Assembly (NCBI GenBank): GCA_905233945.1
Contig: CAJOFY010000019.1
Span: forward strand, 1 to 64,000
From: an uncultured bacterium
GTDB lineage: Bacteria > UBP6 > UBA1177
Length of the DNA stretch: 64,000 nucleotides
Direction: 5' to 3'
The notes beneath the pieces were generated by a model. That model was not told the DNA's origin. It saw only the letters and a program-made list of their open reading frames with translations, and ran no database searches. How positions within the stretch are numbered: position 1 is the stretch's first letter; each line of letters opens with the position of its first letter. Below, one piece after another: positions 18,259 through 52,131 of this stretch. The position numbers and the translations under genes are program-made.

Positions 18259-19614
18259 TTACTTATCTTCTTTGGTTTCTTCCCAGAGGAAATCGAACGC
18301 GCCGCTGAGTGCGAGAGCGATTGCGTGGGTGTTCAATGATTCAGAAACGGTTTCATTCTTTTCGCCGTATCCGTGGAAGGTTGTTTTGTTGAAATCATAG
18401 TCAAGTTCGATTCCTGCGTAGTCGCAGAAGTTGTAGATTATTGCGATATTTACGCCGAGATTCGAATTGTCTTTGCTGACGATGTTTTCTTCGTAGAAAG
18501 GAGCCTTGAAGTATGAAACTCTCGCCATCATGTCGACATCCCAGAGTGTCGCGTAAGGCATTGCGAAAAGTCCCCATGAGGTGTATGACGAGCCCGCTTT
18601 GTCAACGCCGTCGGAGATGAGTTTGCCGTTTTCGAAATCGGGGTTGTAAAGAGCTCGGTGCGTGAGGCCGAATTCGCCTTTGAAGCCGACTGAAATATCG
18701 TCGTTTACGTTGTAGCCGAGATCTGCGCCGATCGCCATGAGGACGTTGTTTCTGCTCTGGTCGAGATCTTCGCCGTTTTTGTAGGAAACGATCTCGTCAT
18801 CTTCGACATTGTAAACATCGAAACCGTAGTTTCTGTAAGCCTTGCCGACAACGAGAGAAGCTGCGGCAGTCGCATAGAAATCGCCCGTTTTGTTGAAGCG
18901 GACGTCAACGCCGAATGCCGGAGCGCGGAAGAGATTTTTTTCTCCGTCAAGCATCGTTTCGTTTGCGCCGTTGAATGTGAAAAGGGTGATTGCTAGGTCG
19001 GATTCTTTCGAAAAAATGAGGTCAACGCCGAGCGAAACGCCGAGATCGTTGAAGGCTCCGCCGAAAAAGTCTTCTTTTATCGCCGAATTTGCGAAAGCGA
19101 CTTCATGGTCGTAACCGTTTTCGATTCCGAACGGCATCGAGAAAAGACCCGCTTCAAGGTTTACATCGAGCCCGAAAGTTCCGGCTGAGTTCCTGAAAGA
19201 GGGGTGCTGCATCCTGAAAGAAACGTTTTTGATGACATCGAGCGTCATTCTGCCTTCGTCATCGACCGAGCCGAAATCGACAACTGCGCGGCCGTTGAAC
19301 ATCCTGTCGCCGCCCTGCAAGTCAAGGATCAGGTTGTCAAGACCGATTTCGTAGCTTTCTTCCTTGTTTACATCGCCGTCTTCGATGTTGATACCTGCAG
19401 AAACTCCGCCGAAAACAGTCGCATTGAAGTAGGGGTTACGCTCGAAAGCGAGTTTGTCTTCCTCTTCTTCAGCTTCTGCTGCTTCTCCTTCAGCGGGAGC
19501 TTCAGCAGCTTCGACTGTTGATTCTTTTGTTTCTTCGTTTGCCTGAGATTCCTGAGCAAACAATGAAAAAGATACTGCGCAGCAAATCATTGCTGCAAAA
19601 AAGAAATTACGCAT
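18259..19614 (-). CDS. Outer-membrane porin-like protein with acidic N-terminal segment
   Basis: Signal peptide ending FAQE, E/A-rich linker, beta-barrel-like alternating pattern, C-terminal barrel. Confidence 0.7.
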   Translation of the reverse strand: MRNFFFAAMICCAVSFSLFAQESQANEETKESTVEAAEAPAEGEAAEAEEEEDKLAFERNPYFNATVFGGVSAGINIEDGDVNKEESYEIGLDNLILDLQGGDRMFNGRAVVDFGSVDDEGRMTLDVIKNVSFRMQHPSFRNSAGTFGLDVNLEAGLFSMPFGIENGYDHEVAFANSAIKEDFFGGAFNDLGVSLGVDLIFSKESDLAITLFTFNGANETMLDGEKNLFRAPAFGVDVRFNKTGDFYATAAASLVVGKAYRNYGFDVYNVEDDEIVSYKNGEDLDQSRNNVLMAIGADLGYNVNDDISVGFKGEFGLTHRALYNPDFENGKLISDGVDKAGSSYTSWGLFAMPYATLWDVDMMARVSYFKAPFYEENIVSKDNSNLGVNIAIIYNFCDYAGIELDYDFNKTTFHGYGEKNETVSESLNTHAIALALSGAFDFLWEETKEDK

Positions 19615-19815: not shown

Positions 19816-19903
19816 TTTAATTGACATATCTCTAATGATTTGGCAGAATCAGCCGCTTTTTGGTTTTTGAGTTTTGATTATTGTTATATTTTAGGAGTTG
19901 GAA

Positions 19904-20512
19904 ATGACGGAACTTATCGAAAAGGGCGGATTTATGATGTATCCCATCATGCTTTCCTCGGTAATTGCCCTTGCTGTTTTTATCGAAAGACTTTTTGTTT
20001 TTGCCTCTGTCAAACTGCCGAAAAAGGAGATCTCTGATGAATTTCTCTCTTCACTTGAAAAAGAGGGTGTAAAAGGGGGAATCTCTTTCATTTCATCGTG
20101 GAAAGGGGCTTTCAAGGATTTTCTTGCGGCGGTCCTGAACGAAAAATCGGAAGAATCGTGCGAAAAAGCGGCTTCTTCTGCCGGAGACGACATTCTTTTC
20201 AATCTTAATCGCAGACTCGATTTTCTTTCGATGCTCGGAAGCGTCACCCCCCTGATGGGACTTTTGGGAACCGTAATCGGTATGATCAAAGTCTTTTCAA
20301 GAGTCGCTGCTGCCGGCGAGATGAGCGACATCAGCATTCTTGCAGGGGGAATCTGGGAGGCTCTTCTTACGACTGCTGCGGGACTTGCGGTAGCGATCCC
20401 GATACTTTTCGCACACAACTACCTTGAAAGGAAACTTGATAAGATCACTCATCTGATGATGCAGACCGCGCAGAAAACTGTCGCTTTGATGAAGGCAGGG
20501 GATTTCAAATGA
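19904..20512 (+). CDS. exbB: ExbB/TolQ/MotA-family proton channel protein
   Basis: Three TMs; LGSVTPLMGLLGTVIGMIKVF, GGIWEALLTTAAGLAVAIP. Confidence 0.9.
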   Translation: MTELIEKGGFMMYPIMLSSVIALAVFIERLFVFASVKLPKKEISDEFLSSLEKEGVKGGISFISSWKGAFKDFLAAVLNEKSEESCEKAASSAGDDILFNLNRRLDFLSMLGSVTPLMGLLGTVIGMIKVFSRVAAAGEMSDISILAGGIWEALLTTAAGLAVAIPILFAHNYLERKLDKITHLMMQTAQKTVALMKAGDFK

Positions 20513-20946
20513 TAAAGTTCGGTCAAACTATGCGGAAAAAGACATCGAGAGAGGTAAACCTCACTCCGATGATCGACATAATCTTCAATCTTCTGATATT
20601 TTTCCTTATTACGGCAGTTATTTCGCAGAAAGGGCTCAACATCAAGCTGCCGAACGCCGAAACTGCCGAAAAAAGACCGCAGAAAACTCTTGAGATCACG
20701 GTCACGGCTGATAATCTGATAACTTTCAACGGAAATGTCGTGAAAAAAGAGGATGTTTTTGAGATGCTCAAGGCTGAAAAGGAGCGTCCAGATACTGAAA
20801 AACACGATGTTATCACTCTGAAAGCCGACGAAAAGGCGCATTTCGGACTTTTCATTTTCGTGATGGATACAGCGCGCAAGCTCGGTTTCGAGAATCTTGC
20901 TATTGCCGCTGAAAGAAAGCTGGAGAGCGAAGTTGAAGAACACTGA
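20509..20946 (+). CDS. exbD: ExbD/TolR-family protein
   Basis: SREVNLTPMIDIIFNLLIFFLITA. Confidence 0.9.
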   Translation: MIKFGQTMRKKTSREVNLTPMIDIIFNLLIFFLITAVISQKGLNIKLPNAETAEKRPQKTLEITVTADNLITFNGNVVKKEDVFEMLKAEKERPDTEKHDVITLKADEKAHFGLFIFVMDTARKLGFENLAIAAERKLESEVEEH

Positions 20947-21619
20947 TTCGATTTTTGTTTTTGCCGTGATTTTTTCGATTTTTGCGCACGGGCTCTTCTT
21001 CCTTTCGAGAACCGATATTTTTAAGGAAAATCAGGTCGTTATGACAACAAAAATGCTCCTTAAAATGGAAACTCCGAAACCTCCTGCGCCTGAAATCCCC
21101 AAACCTAAGGAACTGCCGAAACCTAAACACAAACCGGCAAAAAAAGAGGCACTTCCCGAAAAACCTGCCGAACTGCGCGAAGAGATCAAGGAAGTTGTCG
21201 CACCTGAGAGCGGTCTTCGCATGGCCGAAATGACAGATGCGGAAGCCGGAACCTACGAAAAAGGGAAGGGAAGCGGCACCGGAAACGCGGAAGTTGCCGA
21301 AGCACCTAAAATCGACACAAAAAAGATAGTTTCGGAGTTCAACAAAAAAGTGAACGAAGAAATCGCGAAAAACAAGGTCTATCCCCGTTTCGCGCAGCAG
21401 CACGGCCTTGAAGGAGTTGTCAAAATATCGTTTTCAGTCGATTCGGAAGGCGTTTTTCAGGATATAAAAGTCGCCCTTTCATCAGGCGAAGCGATTCTTG
21501 ACAAAGCGGCACTCGAAAGCGTCGAAAAAAGTAGCGGAAAAATCAAAAAACCAAGTGAAATCAAAAGTATAAAAATCAAAAGAACAGTCGTCATAAGGTT
21601 CGAACTGAAGAATTTGTAA
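20897..21619 (+). CDS. tonB: TonB-like energy transducer (start uncertain)
   Basis: N-terminal TM, PKPPAPEIPKPKELPKPK-type linker, C-terminal YPRFAQQHGLEGVVKISFSVDSEGV. Confidence 0.85.
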   Translation: MLLPLKESWRAKLKNTDSIFVFAVIFSIFAHGLFFLSRTDIFKENQVVMTTKMLLKMETPKPPAPEIPKPKELPKPKHKPAKKEALPEKPAELREEIKEVVAPESGLRMAEMTDAEAGTYEKGKGSGTGNAEVAEAPKIDTKKIVSEFNKKVNEEIAKNKVYPRFAQQHGLEGVVKISFSVDSEGVFQDIKVALSSGEAILDKAALESVEKSSGKIKKPSEIKSIKIKRTVVIRFELKNL

Positions 21620-27659: not shown

Positions 27660-29398
27660 GCTTCAACTCCTTCAGTTTCAAGTTCCGACTGTTCTGTAAA
27701 CATCCGGAAGTAAATTCCTCTGTTTTCGAGAAGTTTTTCGTGCGTTCCCGATTCGGCGATATGTCCTTTGTCAAGCACGATTATCTTGTTGCAGTTTTTG
27801 ATCATCGAAAGCCTGTGAGTGATTATGAGAGAAGTTTTGTTTTGCGAAATTTCCTTAATGTTTTTCCATATTTTTTCTTCGTTTTCGGCATCGAGATTTG
27901 AAGTTGCTTCGTCAAAAATATAAAGAGAGCTTTCTTTAAGGACCGCTCTCGCTATGGCTATGCGCTGCTTCTGTCCGCCCGAAAAAAGTGAGCCCCATTC
28001 GCCTGTTTTCGAGTCGAGCCCCAAAGGTAGCGATGTCACGAAATCTCTGAGACCCGCTATTTCAAGCGCGTCGAGCATTTCTTCATCGGTGGCATCGCTT
28101 TTGGCAATCAGAAGGTTTTCGCGTATCGTCGAATTGAAAATGTATGTGTGCTGCGAAACGAGTGCAATTCTGCTGCGAAGTGCCTGAATGTCGAAATCTG
28201 AAATGTCGCGCCCGTTGATCAGGATTTTTCCGGCAGGCGTGTCAAAAAGTCTTAAAATCAGTGAGCCGATCGTCGATTTTCCTGAGCCTGAACTGCCTAT
28301 AAGCGCAACAGATTCACCTTTTCCGATTTCAAAAGAGACATCATCGAGAACATCCCTTTTTCCATCGTAGGAGAATGTCAGGTCTTTGACGACGACCGAC
28401 TCAATGCGTTCCGGCTTGGCATTTCCGGAACAACGGTATGAGGAGGAGGTTTGGTCTAAAAAAGCTGAAATGTTTTCAAATGCCGCGACACCGTTCATTC
28501 CTGCGTGGAAAAGCGCTCCGAGCATACGCATCGGAAGGAAGAACTCGGCTGAGATCATCAGAATGACGATTGTTCCTTTCAAGTCGGCATTTCCGTTCAT
28601 GAAAGAGTGGATAACGATAAAAATTCCGGTCGCTGCACCGACAAGCGAGAAAAAGTCCATAATGAAAATAGAAGTGAGCTGGAGCGATAGGACTTTCATC
28701 GTTCTCTGGCGGAATGTTTCCGAATTTTTCCGCATATTTTCTGAGACATCACCGTCGCGGTTGCAGAGTTTCAGCGTTACAAGTCCTTGAATATTCTCAA
28801 GAAAACTGCCGTAAAGCTCTTCGTAAGTATTACGGAAACGCTGCATCGTCTTTTTCGCTCTTTTCATAAAGAAAACTATCGAAACAGGGATGAGCCAGAC
28901 TGAAAGCAGCATCGCTGTCGGAGCTGAAATGCTGGTTTTAAAAAGTATCGCAAAAAGGATGAAAGGCACTGTCACGCTGTAAAGAAACTGCGGGATATAG
29001 TGCGCAAAATATACTTCAAGCATCTCTACGCCTTCTATTGCAAGCGAAACAAGCTGCGAAGTGCCCGATTTTTCAAGGTATCCAGCGCCGAGATCGAGAA
29101 TTTTCGCGTAGATGTCCTTGCGTATGGCATTCTGCACTTTTTTTGTTATTGCAAAAGTGTTCCGGCTCGTACACAAACTTGCAAGAAACCTTGTTACAGC
29201 CGCAATGAGAGCCGCTGCGATGAAAAATGAAAGCCTTTCAGAAGAGTCAGCGTTTCCTTTCAGAACTGACTCAAGAAGTGATGCAGCGGCAAATACAAAG
29301 AGCAGGTTCGCGAAGAAAAAAACATATTTCAGAATAACGGCGATACAAAGCTCCGATTTTACTTTTGCCGCATATTTCAGAAGTTTTTTATTTATCAT
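27656..29398 (-). CDS. ABC transporter permease/ATPase (CydD-like)
   Basis: TM domain plus Walker A GSSGSGKST, FSGGQKQRIAIARAVL; overlaps the adjacent ABC gene by 4 nt. Confidence 0.85.
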   Translation of the reverse strand: MINKKLLKYAAKVKSELCIAVILKYVFFFANLLFVFAAASLLESVLKGNADSSERLSFFIAAALIAAVTRFLASLCTSRNTFAITKKVQNAIRKDIYAKILDLGAGYLEKSGTSQLVSLAIEGVEMLEVYFAHYIPQFLYSVTVPFILFAILFKTSISAPTAMLLSVWLIPVSIVFFMKRAKKTMQRFRNTYEELYGSFLENIQGLVTLKLCNRDGDVSENMRKNSETFRQRTMKVLSLQLTSIFIMDFFSLVGAATGIFIVIHSFMNGNADLKGTIVILMISAEFFLPMRMLGALFHAGMNGVAAFENISAFLDQTSSSYRCSGNAKPERIESVVVKDLTFSYDGKRDVLDDVSFEIGKGESVALIGSSGSGKSTIGSLILRLFDTPAGKILINGRDISDFDIQALRSRIALVSQHTYIFNSTIRENLLIAKSDATDEEMLDALEIAGLRDFVTSLPLGLDSKTGEWGSLFSGGQKQRIAIARAVLKESSLYIFDEATSNLDAENEEKIWKNIKEISQNKTSLIITHRLSMIKNCNKIIVLDKGHIAESGTHEKLLENRGIYFRMFTEQSELETEGVEA

Positions 29399-29756
29399 TT
29401 TTCACCGTTTTAAGCATGAGAAGGTGAGTGGTGACAGCGATAAGAACGACGGCGAGGAAAATTCTGATGTAGAAAAGTTTGTTCGGATCGATATCTTTCA
29501 TCGCAAAGAAGAAAGTGTATCCGATCCCGGTCCAAAGAAGGGCGAGACTCTGTATTTTATGACGCAGAAGCATCCCTTTTTTCTCTTTGTAGTTGCGGAT
29601 ATATTCGCCGAAGATCCTGTGGTTGAGCAGCCATTTGTGGAATTTTTCGGAAGAACCGGCGAAAAACCACGCCGCAAGAAGCAGCGGCAGAAAAACTCCC
29701 ACCGAAGCCAGAGTGACAAAAACAAAACCGAGAACTATGTAGATCCTTCTTTTCAA
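29388..29756 (-). CDS. DUF454 (YbaN-like) inner-membrane protein
   Basis: GFVFVTLASVGVFLPLLLAAWFFAGSSEKFHKWLLNHRIFGEYIRNY, typical of the family. Confidence 0.8.
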   Translation of the reverse strand: MKRRIYIVLGFVFVTLASVGVFLPLLLAAWFFAGSSEKFHKWLLNHRIFGEYIRNYKEKKGMLLRHKIQSLALLWTGIGYTFFFAMKDIDPNKLFYIRIFLAVVLIAVTTHLLMLKTVKNDK

Positions 29757-29801: not shown

Positions 29802-29842
29802 TTAGCCTATTGTAAAAATATTTAGATTAAGCTAATTGTCAA
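29802..29842 (-). promoter_or_regulatory. Heme operon promoter with two TTAGC-type boxes (29822-29835 in the -35/-10 spacer; 29802-29815 just downstream of -10)
   Basis: Minus strand TTGACA A TTAGCTTAATCTAA A TATTTT then TTACAATAGGCTAA. Confidence 0.7.
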
Positions 29843-42106: not shown

Positions 42107-42469
42107 TCAACGTTTTGCAATGCTCTTTATTCCGTATCCTGTGCTTTTGATTACTTTCCTCAATTCTTCCTCATCGAGCGGCTCATCGCTTGTTATCTGC
42201 GTGAGGCCTGTTTTGTGCGACGATTTGACCTCTTTTACCTTGAAATTGTTGCGGATCGCGTCGTTGACATGACTTTCGCACATGCCGCACATCATTCCTT
42301 CGATTTCAAGGATTGTCAGGTGTTTTGAAGGGTAGCAGCTTCCTGACATCGGGCAGCAGCCGCAGTTGCATCCGCATGAGGATTTTCCCTGTTTCTTGTT
42401 TTTTACAAGATTGAGGATGATGGCGGCAACCACCGCCATCAATATTGCCAGCACAAGGATTGTTCCCAT
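42107..42469 (-). CDS. FeoB-associated Cys-rich membrane protein fused to an HMA-like domain
   Basis: TM, then KSSCGCNCGCCPMSGSC, then LEIEGMMCGMCESHVNDAIRNN. Confidence 0.8.
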   Translation of the reverse strand: MGTILVLAILMAVVAAIILNLVKNKKQGKSSCGCNCGCCPMSGSCYPSKHLTILEIEGMMCGMCESHVNDAIRNNFKVKEVKSSHKTGLTQITSDEPLDEEELRKVIKSTGYGIKSIAKR

Positions 42470-45001
42470 TATTTACCTGCCGTAACTGAAAGTTTTGTCG
42501 CTTCGCTGTATTGCTTGAAGAAAAGCATGTAGATCATTCCTGCAAGGCAAGCGAAAGCGGCTATCATGAATATTACATTGAAGAGAGAGAAGTTGCCTGT
42601 GAACAGGTTGCCGAACTGGTTGATCATAAGTGCGACTGCATAAGCGAAACCGCACTGGTAGCCGATTGCAAACCATGTCCATTTCGTGTTGTTCATTTCA
42701 CGCTTGATAGCACCGATCGCAGCAAAACACGGAGCGCAGAGAAGGTTGAAGACCAGGAACGAATATCCGGTGATTCCCGTGAATGCCTGAGCCATAGCTT
42801 CCCAAGCCGTCATATCGCCTGCGCCGTAGAGAATGCCCATCGTGCCGACGATGTTTTCTTTTGCGACAAGTCCGGTGACCGATGCGACAGCCGCCTGCCA
42901 GCTTCCCCAGCCGAGCGGAGCGAAGATCCATGCAATGCCTTTGCCGATATATGCTAGGATCGAAGAATCGAGCTGGTCTTCGGTGAGCATTCCGAAACCT
43001 TCGTCAGTCCAGCCGAAGAATGAGGTGAACCATACGAGGATCGTTGAAACAAGGATGATCGTTCCCGCTTTTTTGATGAACGACCAGCCGCGCTCCCACA
43101 TTGATCTGAGAACGTTTCCGAGTGTCGGCATGTGGTAGGAAGGGAGTTCCATTACGAAAGGAGCAGGGTTTCCTGCGAACATTTTTGTCTTTTTGAGCAT
43201 GATGCCGGAGATGATGATCGCTGCCATTCCGACAAAGTATGCGCTTGTAGCGACCCCATGCCGAGCCGTCAAAAATCGCACCTGCAACCATTGCGATGAA
43301 AGGAACTTTCGCGCCGCACGGGATGAAAGTCGTCGTCATGATCGTCATACGGCGGTCGCGCTCGTTTTCTATAGTTCTGCTTGCCATGACGCCGGGGATG
43401 CCGCAGCCGGTCCCGACGAGCATCGGAATGAACGATTTGCCCGAAAGTCCGAATTTTCTGAAGATCCTGTCAAGAACGAATGCGATACGCGCCATATATC
43501 CGCACGCTTCGACAAATGCGAGCAGGAAGAAGAGGACGAGCATCTGCGGAACAAATCCGAGAACTGCGCCGACACCGGCAACGATACCGTCAAGGATGAG
43601 TCCTTTGAGCCACTCTGCGCATCCGATCGCATCGAGGATTTTTTCAACGAGAACGGGAACGCCCGGGATCCATGCGCCGTAATCAGCCGGATCAGGTTCG
43701 TCGAATCCTTTTTCCTCGAAGTAGGAGAGAGCCTCTTTGAAAGACATTCCATTTGCTTCGTTTTCCGCGTCGTCTTCCGCCACTTTGACTTCGCCGTCGT
43801 AGAAAACGTTGATATTTGAATGTTCAAGAGTTTCCTCGTCTTCGACGTCGTAAGCTATATACTGTTTTTCGGGCTGGAGTTCTTTTGCGGCTTTCATCGT
43901 TTCTTCCGCATTGATTTCTTCTTCGCCTTCTTCATTTTTTGCTGTTACGATGACTTCGTAAGCGTCGAAAGCGTTGTGTGCGGCATCGTATTTTTCAGCT
44001 TCTTCCTCGTAGTCGCCTGTTCCGATTCCGAAGAGGTGCCAGCCGTCGCCGAAAAGACCGTCGTTTGCCCAGTCAGTAGCGTCCGCGCCGACCGTTACCA
44101 TTGAAATGTAATAGATAAGGAACATGACTATCGCGAAAATCGGAAGGCCGAGCCAGCGGTTCGTCACGATTTTGTCGATTTTATCCGAATTCGAAAGCTC
44201 GCCTGCATTCGCCTTTTTGTAGCTCGATTTCAGAATTTCTGCGATGTAGATGTAACGTTCGTTCGTGATGATGCTTTCCGCATCGTCGTCAAGCTCTTTT
44301 TCGGCAGCCTTGATGTCTGCTTCGATGTGGTCGAGAAGACCTTTTTCGATTTTGAGCATTTCAAGGACTTTGTCGTCACGCTCGAAAACTTTGATCGCAT
44401 ACCATCTCTGCTGTTCTTCGGGCATGCCATGGACGACTGCTTCTTCGATGTGGGCGATTGCGTGCTCGACCGGGCCCGAGAAAGAATGCTGCGGAAGGGT
44501 TTTTGTCTCTTTCGCCGCTTTGATTGCCGCTTCAGCCGCTTCCGTGATTCCGTCGCCTTTAAGTGCTGAAATCTCGACGATCCTGCATTTGAGTTGTCTC
44601 GAAAGTTCGGCAACATCTATTTTGTCACCCGATTTTTTGACGAGATCCATCATGTTAAGGGCGATTACGACCGGAATTCCAAGTTCGACAAGCTGGGTCG
44701 TAAGGTAAAGGTTTCTTTCAAGGTTTGTCGCGTCGACGATGTTCAAAATTGCATTGGGACGCTCGCCGATAAGGTAGTTTCTCGCAACGACTTCTTCCAG
44801 AGTATAAGGTGAAAGCGAGTAGATTCCGGGAAGGTCCGTAATGATAACGCCTTCATGTTTTTTGAGTTTTCCCTCTTTTTTCTCGACTGTTACTCCCGGC
44901 CAGTTTCCGACGAACTGGTTTGAGCCCGTGAGAGCGTTGAAAAGGGTGGTTTTTCCCGAATTTGGGTTTCCCGCAAGTGCGATCCTGATTTGTTCAGCCA
45001 T
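42469..45001 (-). CDS. feoB: Ferrous iron transporter FeoB, split by a frameshift near 43254-43257 (ORFs 43004-45001 and 42469-43287)
   Basis: G domain IALAGNPNSGKTTLFNALTG, Gate motifs; reading continues as DGSAW/VATSAYFVG only after a 1-nt shift at a GGGG run. Confidence 0.88.
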
Positions 45002-45533: not shown

Positions 45534-45574
45534 TTAGCTGTAACTAACTATAATTAGCAACAGCTAACTGTCAA
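45534..45574 (-). promoter_or_regulatory. feo operon promoter with two TTAGC-type boxes (45554-45567 in spacer; 45534-45547 after -10)
   Basis: Minus strand TTGACA G TTAGCTGTTGCTAA T TATAGTTAGTTACAGCTAA. Confidence 0.78.
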
Positions 45575-48129: not shown

Positions 48130-49401
48130 TTATTTGCCTTTTGCGTTTATGGAACCGTTGGTGATTTTGTAACATTTTCCATCAGGGACAGGGACACCTG
48201 TAACCATATCGACTTCCACAAAAACCGGCTGCTGGAAAGGCACTGTCGCTATGAAAGAACCATTCGGGTTTATTGACGGAATGTGAAGAAAACCTCTCTT
48301 GGCATAATAGAGTTTCGTGACAATTTCCCCGGTATATTCTTTGATGAATGCACATACACCGTATTCATTGTCGGGTTTTTCTCGTGTGCAGGTGTTGAAT
48401 GGATAGTGTGCTAAATCAATAGTAAGCGAAGCTGAGGAAGGTTTGGAAATTTTCAGAGAGAAATGATTCTTGCTGCTGCCGCCGTTCGGAGAGTATTCTG
48501 CGGCGTAGTCTAAAAAATTGTGTGCAGGATCTGCTGCTGATGTCAGGACAAGGTCGCTGAGTGTGATTGCGGTGCACTGAACTTCCAGACATTGTGTCTG
48601 ATCTGCACTGCAAATTTGATCGCGGCAGCCGTCTTTGCCGCTTTCAGCGTTGCCGCAGTAGCTGCCGCATTCGTTTATGCCGCAGACTTTTCCTTCGCAT
48701 GTGCACGGAACGCATTTGCCTTCCGCATTGCATCCCTGGCCGTCTCCGCAACCGCCGTTCCCGCAGAGTCCGCCGCAGCCGTCTGATCCGCATTCTCTTC
48801 CTTCGCACGAGCACTCGATGCACATGGTCTGGTCGATACTGCATCTTTCTTTGTAGTCACAGCCGCCGCACGGGTTGCCGAATTCGTCTTCTCCGCAGAT
48901 TTTTTCTCCGCATTTTGATTCAGCGCATTTACCGTTGTCGCAGAAAAATCCTGCGCCGCAGGTTCCGCATTTTCCGCCGCAACCGTCTTCTCCGCACTCT
49001 TTTTCTGTGCCGTCTTCGGCTTTGCAGTTAGGAGTGCACTTGCAGGTTTTTGTCTCCTGATCGCAGATTTTTCCTTCGCCGCAATTTCCGCATGAACCTC
49101 CGCAGCCGTCGCTTCCGCACTGTTTTCCTGCACAGTTCGGCTGGCAGTCGGTATCTGACGGAGTTGTGTCTGTTGGGTCTGAAGGGGTAGCGGAATCAGA
49201 AGTATCTGACGTATCTGAGGGAGTTTCAGAGCCTGTATCCGCCGCGGTACCGGTGTCGCCTTCTTTGCCGCTGTCGGCAGCTGTATCGGACGAACCTGTG
49301 TTCGCAGCTTCGTTTGTCTCTTCTTCGTCATCGTCAGTTACACAGGAAACAAAAAGAAACATTGAAAAAATCAGCAGTATAAGTGTCAAAAACTTTTTCA
49401 T
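48130..49401 (-). CDS. Array lipoprotein 1: acidic linker plus Cys-rich CGSDGCGGxCGxC modules
   Basis: Lipobox MFLFVSC; several Cys-rich repeats. Confidence 0.8.
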   Translation of the reverse strand: MKKFLTLILLIFSMFLFVSCVTDDDEEETNEAANTGSSDTAADSGKEGDTGTAADTGSETPSDTSDTSDSATPSDPTDTTPSDTDCQPNCAGKQCGSDGCGGSCGNCGEGKICDQETKTCKCTPNCKAEDGTEKECGEDGCGGKCGTCGAGFFCDNGKCAESKCGEKICGEDEFGNPCGGCDYKERCSIDQTMCIECSCEGRECGSDGCGGLCGNGGCGDGQGCNAEGKCVPCTCEGKVCGINECGSYCGNAESGKDGCRDQICSADQTQCLEVQCTAITLSDLVLTSAADPAHNFLDYAAEYSPNGGSSKNHFSLKISKPSSASLTIDLAHYPFNTCTREKPDNEYGVCAFIKEYTGEIVTKLYYAKRGFLHIPSINPNGSFIATVPFQQPVFVEVDMVTGVPVPDGKCYKITNGSINAKGK

Positions 49402-49409
49402 GAGAGCCT

Positions 49410-50552
49410 CTATTCATAGCTGAGGTTAGCGTCTTCAACGATGAGACAGTCGCCGCCCTCAACAAATTCCCTGGTTATTTTCAATCCGGGGTCTAGTATT
49501 GTTCCGGCTTCTTCAGTTTGTATTATTTCACCGAATTTTATTCCGGAAATATCAGCATTTATCTTTGCACCGTTTCCGGATATCTGGCTGCCTTCTTCAT
49601 ACGAGTTGACAGTAATAGTTCCTGTTTTCGGCAGGAATGTTTTGGGATTATTGTTTTTGTGGTCTTCAATGATATAAAAACAGAGAGTTTTGTATGTCGA
49701 GTTATCCACGTCGCAGTTGTCAATATTGCCTGAAAGATCGAACGGTGTTCCGGTTTCCGGCACGGTTGACGATTTGAAAACGATGACATATTTGTCATCC
49801 TTGGACGGGTCCCCGGTATTCGGAGTATACGCATCGGTTTCGGATCTGTAGTACAGGTATCCGTTGTTGTTTTTCGATGCTTTGACTGGAGAAAGAGTTA
49901 TGGTAGTGCAGCCTTTGCATGTCTGGGCAGCGGTGCAGACTTCATCTTCCTTGCAGCCGCCGTTGTATTCTCCGCAGAATCCGCCGCAGCCGTCAGGACC
50001 GCACTCTTTGCCTTCGCACTGGGGAGCGCATTCGCAGAGACCTGTTTCTTCGCCGCATGTTTCGTTTGATTTGCAGCCGCAGGGTTCTCCGCAGCCGTTA
50101 TCAGTTCCGGCGCCGCAGTGAATCCCGTCGCATGTTCCTGTGCACTTGCAGGTGAAAGTTCCTGCATCGCAGATTCTTCCTTCTCCGCAGGTTCCGCACT
50201 GTCCTCCGCAGCCGTCAGAACCGCATTCTTTGCCGTCGCACTGTGGAGTGCATCCGCCGGGAGTCGTGTCGCCTGTTTCGGCAGAAGTTGTGTCTGCCTG
50301 ATCTGACGGAGTCGTGTCGCCTGTTTCGGCAGAAGTTGTGTCACCTGTATCATCAGCCGGGTTTGTGTCGCCTGTTTCGGCAGGAGTCGTGTTACCGGTG
50401 TCAGACGGATTAGTGTCGCCGTTTTCCGACGGTGTTGTGTCTCCTGCTGGAGTGTTGTCACCGGAAACAGTGTCTTCCTCGTCGTCTTCAACGCATGAAA
50501 CAAAAACAAACATCGCTAGAATAAGGGAAATGATTGTCAGAAACTTTTTCAT
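49410..50552 (-). CDS. Array lipoprotein 2: D/T/P/A-rich stalk plus Cys-rich modules
   Basis: MKKFLTIISLILAMFVFVSC; CTPQCDGKECGSDGCGGQCGTCG. Confidence 0.8.
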   Translation of the reverse strand: MKKFLTIISLILAMFVFVSCVEDDEEDTVSGDNTPAGDTTPSENGDTNPSDTGNTTPAETGDTNPADDTGDTTSAETGDTTPSDQADTTSAETGDTTPGGCTPQCDGKECGSDGCGGQCGTCGEGRICDAGTFTCKCTGTCDGIHCGAGTDNGCGEPCGCKSNETCGEETGLCECAPQCEGKECGPDGCGGFCGEYNGGCKEDEVCTAAQTCKGCTTITLSPVKASKNNNGYLYYRSETDAYTPNTGDPSKDDKYVIVFKSSTVPETGTPFDLSGNIDNCDVDNSTYKTLCFYIIEDHKNNNPKTFLPKTGTITVNSYEEGSQISGNGAKINADISGIKFGEIIQTEEAGTILDPGLKITREFVEGGDCLIVEDANLSYE

Positions 50553-50574
50553 AGGATTCCTCCTTTAAATTGTG

Positions 50575-51996
50575 TTAATTTCCATGGAACGAGTCATTTG
50601 TTATTTCAAAACATTTTCCGCCGGCAACAGGAATGCCGTCAGTAGTGTTTATATTGACAAGTCTGATGCCGCTGAGTGCTGCTTCAAGTTTTCCGCTGCT
50701 GTCAAGTGTCGTAATGTTTATTGTTCCCTGGGTAGGGAAATAGAACTTGTTGCTGTCGCTGATGTCCTTTATGTAAATGCATACGCTGTTTTGTTCAGGC
50801 CAGCCGTCTGTTTTATCTCCGAGAGATGTTTCCCCCTTGCAGTTGCCGAGGAATGTCATGGTGGAAAGATCGGTTTCTTTCATCATCGAAAGTCCCTGAA
50901 GTCTGAGCCAGAAATCATGTCTTACTTCCGGACTGTCGCCTTCTTTGAAGGATGATACATAGAAAAATTCCTCATGTTCAAGCTGATTCGGTTTGCTGGA
51001 AAGGGAGAGGTCGTTGACTGTTATTTTGGTACATTCGTATGGAATACACTGGGTCTGATCCGCGCTGCAGCCTTCGTTTTCGCCTGTGCATGTTCCGCAT
51101 GATCCGCCGCAGCCGTTGCTTCCGCAGATTTTGTCCTTGCCGTTCTCTGTTTTGCAGCTCGGTTTGCAGAGATTGTCGAAAGCAGTTTCGATTTCAAGGC
51201 ATGCACCGTTAGGAACAGGTACAGATGCACCGTCACTTTCTGCGATTGTGACTTCTTCAAGTTTTGCGGTGAGAGAGCCTTTGATTCTGTTGGATTCGTC
51301 AACTTCTTCGACATTCAAAGTTCCCGATTTCTGGAAGAATTTCGGATCCTGTTCCCCGTCCTGGAAAACGCTTACGCACTCCAGACAACTGTTGTAATTA
51401 CGCTGTTTGTTGTTGTGTGCATCAGTTGTATTGGCCGGATCGTATGTCAGACTGTAGCTGCCGCTATTCAGAGTTTCATCGTCGTTGCGCCTGAACTTGA
51501 TCTCAAGTTCGTCCGTCTTAGAATCGCTTCCAAGAACTTCTTTTATTTCGGCGCGGTATATCCCCCATGTGCTTGTGGAATCAAACGAATCCGGCACTAT
51601 TGAAATTCCGGTGCAGTTTACCGGATCAGACGGCGTATTGTCGGTGTCGCCTGTATCGGCAGAACCTGTATCGCCTGTGTCTGCGCTGCCGGTATCAGCC
51701 GAGCCTGTGTCAGCAGAGCCGGTATCAGCCGAGCCTGTGTCTGCACTGCCGGTATCAGCAGATCCGGTGTCAGCAGAACCTGTGTCTGCGCCTGTATCTC
51801 CGCTGTGGTTGCTGTCGGATGTGTCCGTTGTGTCGGACGGAGTAGTGTCCGTATCGGTCGAGCCAGTGTCAGACGGATCGCTACCAGTGTCGCCGGAAAC
51901 TGTGTCTGTAGTATCTTCCTCTTCCTCATCTTCAAGACATGAAACAAAAAGAAACATTGCGAGAATCAGGGAAATGATTGTCAAAAACTTTTTCAT
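50575..51996 (-). CDS. Array lipoprotein 3: (ADTGS)n stalk, CxxC domain, Cys-rich module
   Basis: MKKFLTIISLILAMFLFVSC; DTGSADTGSADTGSADTG; NYNSCLECVSVFQDG. Confidence 0.8.
   Translation of the reverse strand: MKKFLTIISLILAMFLFVSCLEDEEEEDTTDTVSGDTGSDPSDTGSTDTDTTPSDTTDTSDSNHSGDTGADTGSADTGSADTGSADTGSADTGSADTGSADTGSADTGDTGSADTGDTDNTPSDPVNCTGISIVPDSFDSTSTWGIYRAEIKEVLGSDSKTDELEIKFRRNDDETLNSGSYSLTYDPANTTDAHNNKQRNYNSCLECVSVFQDGEQDPKFFQKSGTLNVEEVDESNRIKGSLTAKLEEVTIAESDGASVPVPNGACLEIETAFDNLCKPSCKTENGKDKICGSNGCGGSCGTCTGENEGCSADQTQCIPYECTKITVNDLSLSSKPNQLEHEEFFYVSSFKEGDSPEVRHDFWLRLQGLSMMKETDLSTMTFLGNCKGETSLGDKTDGWPEQNSVCIYIKDISDSNKFYFPTQGTINITTLDSSGKLEAALSGIRLVNINTTDGIPVAGGKCFEITNDSFHGN
51630..51800. 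repeat. In-frame 15-bp tandem repeat encoding SADTG units
   Basis: Repeated gtgtcagcagagccggtatcagccgagcct words. Confidence 0.85.
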
Positions 51997-52131
51997 TTTT
52001 TTAGTCTCCCAAAAAACAATAGATAAACAAAACAAGAAATAGTAGTGAAAAAAGAGATTAAAACAATTTTTGTGGAGACGCTTCAAAACGTCTATTTATG
52101 ATGACTGTGATTTAATGTGATTCGGATGACT

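Follow-up and report, generated by a model that had tools for sequence, protein, structure and literature searches.

The window, by which we mean the entire 64-kb stretch of DNA analysed here, carries on its minus strand an iron uptake operon (feo1) in which two feoA copies are followed by feoB and by a gene for a FeoB-associated Cys-rich membrane protein, all downstream of a promoter that is overlaid by two inverted repeats (Table 1). Read directly from the sequence, the minus strand from 45574 to 45534 is TTGACA-G-TTAGCTGTTGCTAA-T-TATAG-TTAGTTACAGCTAA, with the plus-strand letters TTAGCTGTAACTAA at 45534-45547, TTAGCAACAGCTAA at 45554-45567 and TGTCAA at 45569-45574. Both repeats have the form TTAG-N6-CTAA, matching the single-dimer 14-mer of the DtxR/IdeR family, and operator 2 probably covers the transcription start. 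The preliminary description of this DNA had the promoter and dyad layout, the positions and the 20-bp distance right to the base, and its assignment of the promoter to feo is borne out by the FeoA, FeoA and FeoB genes, which all lie downstream of it on the same strand. The dyad behind its pattern TTAGS-N4-SCTAA is also real, although the TTAGS arm was drawn slightly too strictly, since C or T outnumber G at the fifth arm position.

The feoB frameshift (window 43254-43256, minus strand) breaks the gene between codons 582 and 583, as placed by tblastn, and could reflect either a mistake in the assembly or a recent disruption of the gene; the gene is intact in relatives (about 846 aa), and both window halves are about 99% identical to this intact gene. 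The window FeoB shares 71-83% identity with FeoB of rumen and gut Clostridia, Treponema and others, about 43% with the second FeoB of its own genome and 36-40% with FeoB of other genera of its family. Because it is closer to the Clostridia and Treponema proteins than to those of its own family, these identities suggest horizontal transfer of feoB among rumen bacteria. Elsewhere in the window (48130-52086, minus strand), three adjoining genes encode lipoprotein-like products with extended runs rich in Thr, Asp and Ser and with Cys-rich CGxDGCGGxCG repeats, and they appear to form a tandem family.

Table 1 Promoter elements, operators and genes discussed in the text, with their positions in the window.
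Feature	Position	Strand	Remarks
-35 hexamer TTGACA of feo1	45569..45574	-	direct reading; invariant in 10 genomes of the genus
Operator 1, TTAGCTGTTGCTAA	45554..45567	-	within the 16-bp -35/-10 spacer (45568-45553)
-10 hexamer TATAGT of feo1	45547..45552	-	direct reading; genus form TAT[A/T/C]GT
Operator 2, TTAGTTACAGCTAA	45534..45547	-	begins at last base of the -10, 20 bp from operator 1
feoA, first copy, 74 aa	45257..45481	-	PF04023, E 8.6e-15
feoA, second copy, 73 aa	45011..45232	-	PF04023, E 5.4e-22
feoB	42469..45001	-	frameshifted near 43255 in assembly; PF02421/PF17910/PF07670
FeoB-associated Cys-rich membrane protein fused to HMA domain	42107..42469	-	PF12669, PF00403
Outer-membrane protein gene	18259..19614	-	
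Operator TTAGCTATCGCTAA	19717..19730	-	starts at end of the -10 of the outer-membrane protein gene
Operator TTAGCATCATCTAA	19802..19815	+	directly upstream of promoter reading into exbB; conserved in L207
exbB	19898..20512		downstream of operator 19802
exbD	20509..20943		downstream of operator 19802
tonB	20897..21619		downstream of operator 19802
DUF454 gene	29388..29756	-	in the DUF454/two-ABC-transporter operon
Operator TTAGCTTAATCTAA	29822..29835	-	right after TTGACA of DUF454/two-ABC-transporter operon
Weaker operator TTACAATAGGCTAA	29802..29815	-	one mismatch; matrix score 6.1

Operator sites in the window and the genome

Other sites of the same form lie at two further places in the window. 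Operators 19717 and 19802 share the divergent region between the outer-membrane protein gene and exbB-exbD-tonB, with an HmuY-like gene and a TonB-dependent receptor adjoining tonB, and operator 29822 stands with its weaker partner at 29802 in front of the DUF454 operon, the two being exactly 20 bp apart in the layout of feo1. The whole 2.65-Mb genome has nine TTAG-N6-CTAA sites, five of them inside the window, which makes up 2.4% of the genome. In keeping with the role that the preliminary description had given to the dyad, the genome-wide scan did not find it equally common in coding or unrelated places: iron-gene promoters hold six of the nine sites, at feo1 (two), at a second feo operon (one), at the outer-membrane protein gene and exbBD-tonB (two) and at the DUF454-ABC operon (one). 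The other three have no clear iron link: one lies between genes (contig 22) and two lie in coding sequence (contigs 27 and 49). This list of regulon members rests on exact-pattern searches of the genome. The second feo operon (contig 10, L001) reads TTGACT-A-TTAGTCAGAGCTAA, followed by a conserved CTAATTTGATT half-site.

The five window sites compare with 0.51 expected, and none of 100 dinucleotide shuffles reached five. When the spacing between the arms was scanned from N0 to N24, N6 gave the five matches, N0 and N3 gave one each and all other spacings none. A weight matrix trained solely on other genomes likewise placed the five sites on top, with scores of 13.8-26.9 and the next match at 6.2, in a scan where the best of eight shuffles scored 18.7, so that single weak matches are not to be trusted. 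Genome-wide, a reverse-read control pattern has 91 sites against nine for the operator, and avoidance of the motif was considered and dropped: the same arms at N9, where the codon phase is kept, are equally rare (six genomic sites, none in the window or at the promoters studied), and the rarity is thus due to the words and not to the operator. An extended motif with a TTGATT tail and three allowed mismatches gave hundreds of background matches and was useless beyond the known sites.

Conservation in relatives and at feoB loci of other phyla

Across ten genomes of the genus, including that of the window, the feo1 promoter always has TTGACA, the TTAG/CTAA arms of both dyads and the distance of 20 bp between these dyads. 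The TTAG and GCTAA arms of operator 1 are invariant, its central bases are variable, and most central bases of both dyads drift; judged from the alignment, such invariant arms around varying centres are the pattern expected of a protein-binding dyad. Sites upstream of the outer-membrane protein and DUF454 genes are kept in relatives as well (in L189, L197, L207 and L208 for operator 19717, and as an orthologous site in L189 for operator 29822). At loci from further genera of the family and order (L057, L061, L063, L064, L068), TTGACA in the promoter is again followed by the operator, with FeoB only 36-40% identical.

The comparison was extended to 78 related FeoB loci from Clostridia, Treponema and others, in which 183 TTAG-N6-CTAA sites fall in the 75 kb formed by the 1 kb upstream of each feoB, as against 15 in the other 660 kb, and the spacing is essentially N6 only. 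Here too, the dyad is far from evenly spread over coding and unrelated sequence, 183 of 198 sites lying just upstream of feoB. At least one operator was present in 68 of the 72 loci with enough upstream DNA. A divergent DtxR-family gene stands upstream of feoB in 22 of 70 loci, every one of them (22/22) with an operator in between. A strict TTGAC-operator-TATA arrangement, always of one length, was present at 22 loci. The spacer in these other phyla is 17 bp and their operators are often about 30 bp apart, whereas the genus of the window has 16 bp and 20 bp. Because these latter values are found at feo1 and at the genus's own DUF454 operon alike, the window promoter follows the local style. 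Our search of the open literature gave no earlier description of a TTAG-N6-CTAA operator at Clostridia feo, although subscription papers or regulon databases may hold one. Many Firmicutes loci (L081:4954, L083:4960, L086:4964, L129:3317 and others) have an extra site some 40-60 bp ahead of the feoB start, which might serve as an internal point of control.

These counts bear on the simplest alternative, namely that the dyads are a product of chance or a general feature of promoters or base composition, with no regulator involved. The promoter region is indeed AT-rich, and TTAG and CTAA are words that belong to AT-rich sequence. However, the excess in the window, its restriction to the N6 spacing, the invariant arms with drifting centres and the concentration of sites upstream of feoB all speak against it; the site counts contradict this alternative, and its probability is negligible.

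The DtxR-family regulator and its metal site

The genome encodes one DtxR-family regulator, L010 (G000:C42:1405-1851), a two-domain protein of 149 aa with PF01325 (1.3e-13) and PF02742 (5.3e-16), whose gene lies outside the window, downstream of coaBC and on another contig than the feo1 operator. No operator was found in the 3 kb around this gene, where the best matrix score was below 0. A second PF01325 match (L011) looks like LexA by sequence (215 aa, with a LexA-like C-terminus) and was no candidate. A PF01475 profile search of the genome for Fur gave no match, the control responding in 13 of 14 genomes, and there is no full-length Fur across the genus; weak Fur matches in four genomes (G001, G002, G006, G010) were rejected as partial ones inside longer frames of 376-407 aa.

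Of the 14 other genomes in the genus, 11 encode an L010 orthologue of 92-98% identity and two (G004, G010) one of 62%, while one draft that is 93% complete (G001) has no match. Beyond the genus, identity falls to 60% in a further genus of this family and to 47-50% elsewhere in the order. Two of the order's genomes (L214, L225) have the orthologue in divergent orientation to a feoB-like gene, and the sequence separating the two genes contains TTGACAAG-TTAG..N6..CTAA-CTATATT. The three genomes of a distant family (f4: G025, G026, G027) all carry Fur; an L010 homologue is lacking in G026 and G027 and limited to a 29% partial match in G025, and the feo loci of this family (L070, L071) yielded no TTAG-N6-CTAA site.

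On these grounds, the two feo1 dyads are very probably the sites of L010, a predicted repressor that would, when metal-bound, block RNA polymerase. The preliminary description had judged the arms to be closer to DtxR/IdeR boxes than to a Fur box and had seen no DtxR-type regulator gene in the window. Both points are upheld by a genome that has no Fur and a single true DtxR-family gene, located elsewhere, by a dyad that equals the 14-bp single-dimer unit of the IdeR box, and by the regulator homologues divergent from feoB with the operator between, in the order and at the 22 other loci. Another protein, of the Fur family or of MarR/IscR type, might bind the sites and the DtxR link be coincidental, seeing that L010 is not adjacent to the operator in this genome and that DtxR binding is a prediction; but with the Fur gene absent, the 14-mer that of IdeR and the divergent DtxR-operator-feo order recurring in other phyla, we regard this as very improbable.

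Which metal L010 would respond to is a separate matter. In this protein family, a primary metal site of Met/Cys/Glu/His is that of DtxR (iron), and one of Asp/Glu/Glu/His is that of MntR. The predicted ligands of L010 are Asp16, Cys108, Glu111 and His112, so that the Mn-type set is broken by Cys108 in place of Glu. Among 29 aligned regulators, His85, Cys108, Glu111 and His112 are invariant, and position 16 is occupied by Asp in 15 proteins, by Met in 12 and by Asn in two, the 12 with Met all coming from feo-linked loci of Firmicutes type. The solved structures closest to L010 are MntR (best matches include 2h09 and 1on1) and SloR.

The sequence does not settle the metal because Asp/Cys/Glu/His is a mixed site, as in PgMntR of Porphyromonas gingivalis, which bound both metals, was activated by Mn and formed a DNA complex that Fe destabilised (PMC4805248). 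It is thus conceivable, though we consider it unlikely, that L010 uses Mn(II), or Mn(II) together with Fe(II), as co-repressor and that manganese affects feo no less than iron does, as the Mn-type ligand Asp16, the example of PgMntR and the MntR and SloR structures would allow. Against this stand the targets, since every one mapped in the window is a ferrous-iron or TonB/ABC uptake gene, as well as the DtxR set Met/Cys/Glu/His in the 12 feo-linked proteins and the invariant Cys108. Further, Faecalibacterium feoAABC is repressed by ferrous sulfate in a report that names no DtxR or MntR (PMC10781979); by analogy, this is the behaviour that would be expected of DtxR-type control of feo if that promoter carried the operator. 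The uptake-gene targets favour iron over Mn, and Fe(II) is the most likely co-repressor of L010.

Predicted iron switch and comparison with known systems

When Fe(II) is plentiful, metal-bound L010 dimers would occupy each TTAG-N6-CTAA, one on operator 1 filling the -35/-10 spacer and the other on operator 2 covering the edge of the -10 and the start site, and with both in place sigma-70 RNA polymerase could not bind. Since 20 bp is about two turns, the two dimers would sit on the same face of the DNA. As iron falls, the repressor would leave and feoA-feoA-feoB would be transcribed, and its release would also free the rest of the regulon, that is the second feo operon, the outer-membrane protein gene with exbBD-tonB and the DUF454-ABC operon. 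For L010 at feo1, we infer physical binding, repression rather than activation, and a co-repressor role for Fe(II) and not for Mn(II).

The IdeR/DtxR box is alike in its TTAG-N6-CTAA geometry, DtxR-family regulator, iron-uptake targets and overlap with the promoter. One IdeR dimer can bind a half site, and a redefinition of the consensus as the 14-bp TTAGGNNNNCCTAA has been proposed (PMC8464063). We find that the published IdeR 19-mer TTAGGTTAGSCTAACCTAA consists of two overlapping TTAG-N6-CTAA units at offsets 0 and 5, whereas feo1 has two separate 14-mers 20 bp apart, with no 5-bp offset and hence no full 19-bp two-dimer box; the sites described here correspond to this 14-mer, present alone or as two copies that do not overlap. 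They also differ in arm position 5, mostly C or T here and G in the published IdeR consensus, and in L010 itself, which is without an SH3-like domain.

The MntR proteins of Escherichia coli and Bacillus subtilis are two-domain members of the family, as is L010, and the E. coli MntR box, TAGC-N4-GCTA, has the same geometry as the sites here. They differ in having Glu where L010 has Cys, and instead of mntH the genes targeted here are those of ferrous-iron and TonB systems. PgMntR shares the predicted primary ligands of L010, but carries FeoA domains at its C-terminus, has a Mn transporter as its target and failed to bind the feoB1 promoter (PMC4805248). Treponema TroR, compared here by its family, target and metal response, is also a DtxR-like repressor of a metal-uptake operon, in this case troABCD, with an 18-bp dyad near a sigma-70-like promoter and a response to Mn and Fe (PMC2628430). 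Fur at enterobacterial feo is likewise an iron-dependent repressor placed over the feo promoter, but belongs to a different protein family, of which this genome has no gene.

As such sites are found at the iron-uptake genes of several phyla, the predicted iron switch is clear-cut but of a common type. This kind of control is already known, and what is added here by sequence comparison is a predicted regulator gene, a regulon and the linkage of operator and regulator across phyla. The natural sequences support the 14-bp single-dimer site as a real DtxR/IdeR recognition unit, as was proposed (PMC8464063), and suggest that many Clostridia of gut and rumen regulate feo through a DtxR-family protein. 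Tentatively, and with somewhat more doubt than confidence, the observations could be joined into one reading, in which a two-domain DtxR clade with an Asp/Cys/Glu/His site replaced Fur as the main iron regulator in this rumen lineage, the 14-mer doubled at 20 bp locks both spacer and start site, and a feo operator code common to UBP6-type bacteria, Clostridia and Treponema would have let a horizontally acquired feoAAB come under local control.

For a lineage in which we found no characterised regulator in the literature, the data give a concrete candidate iron regulon with operator, regulator and targets. In one relative, TTAGATAAAGCTAA at G006:C1:656538 (L189:1539) lies upstream of genes for an ArsR-like regulator and a His-rich, heavy-metal-ATPase-like protein, and this locus is a possible extra member of the regulon.
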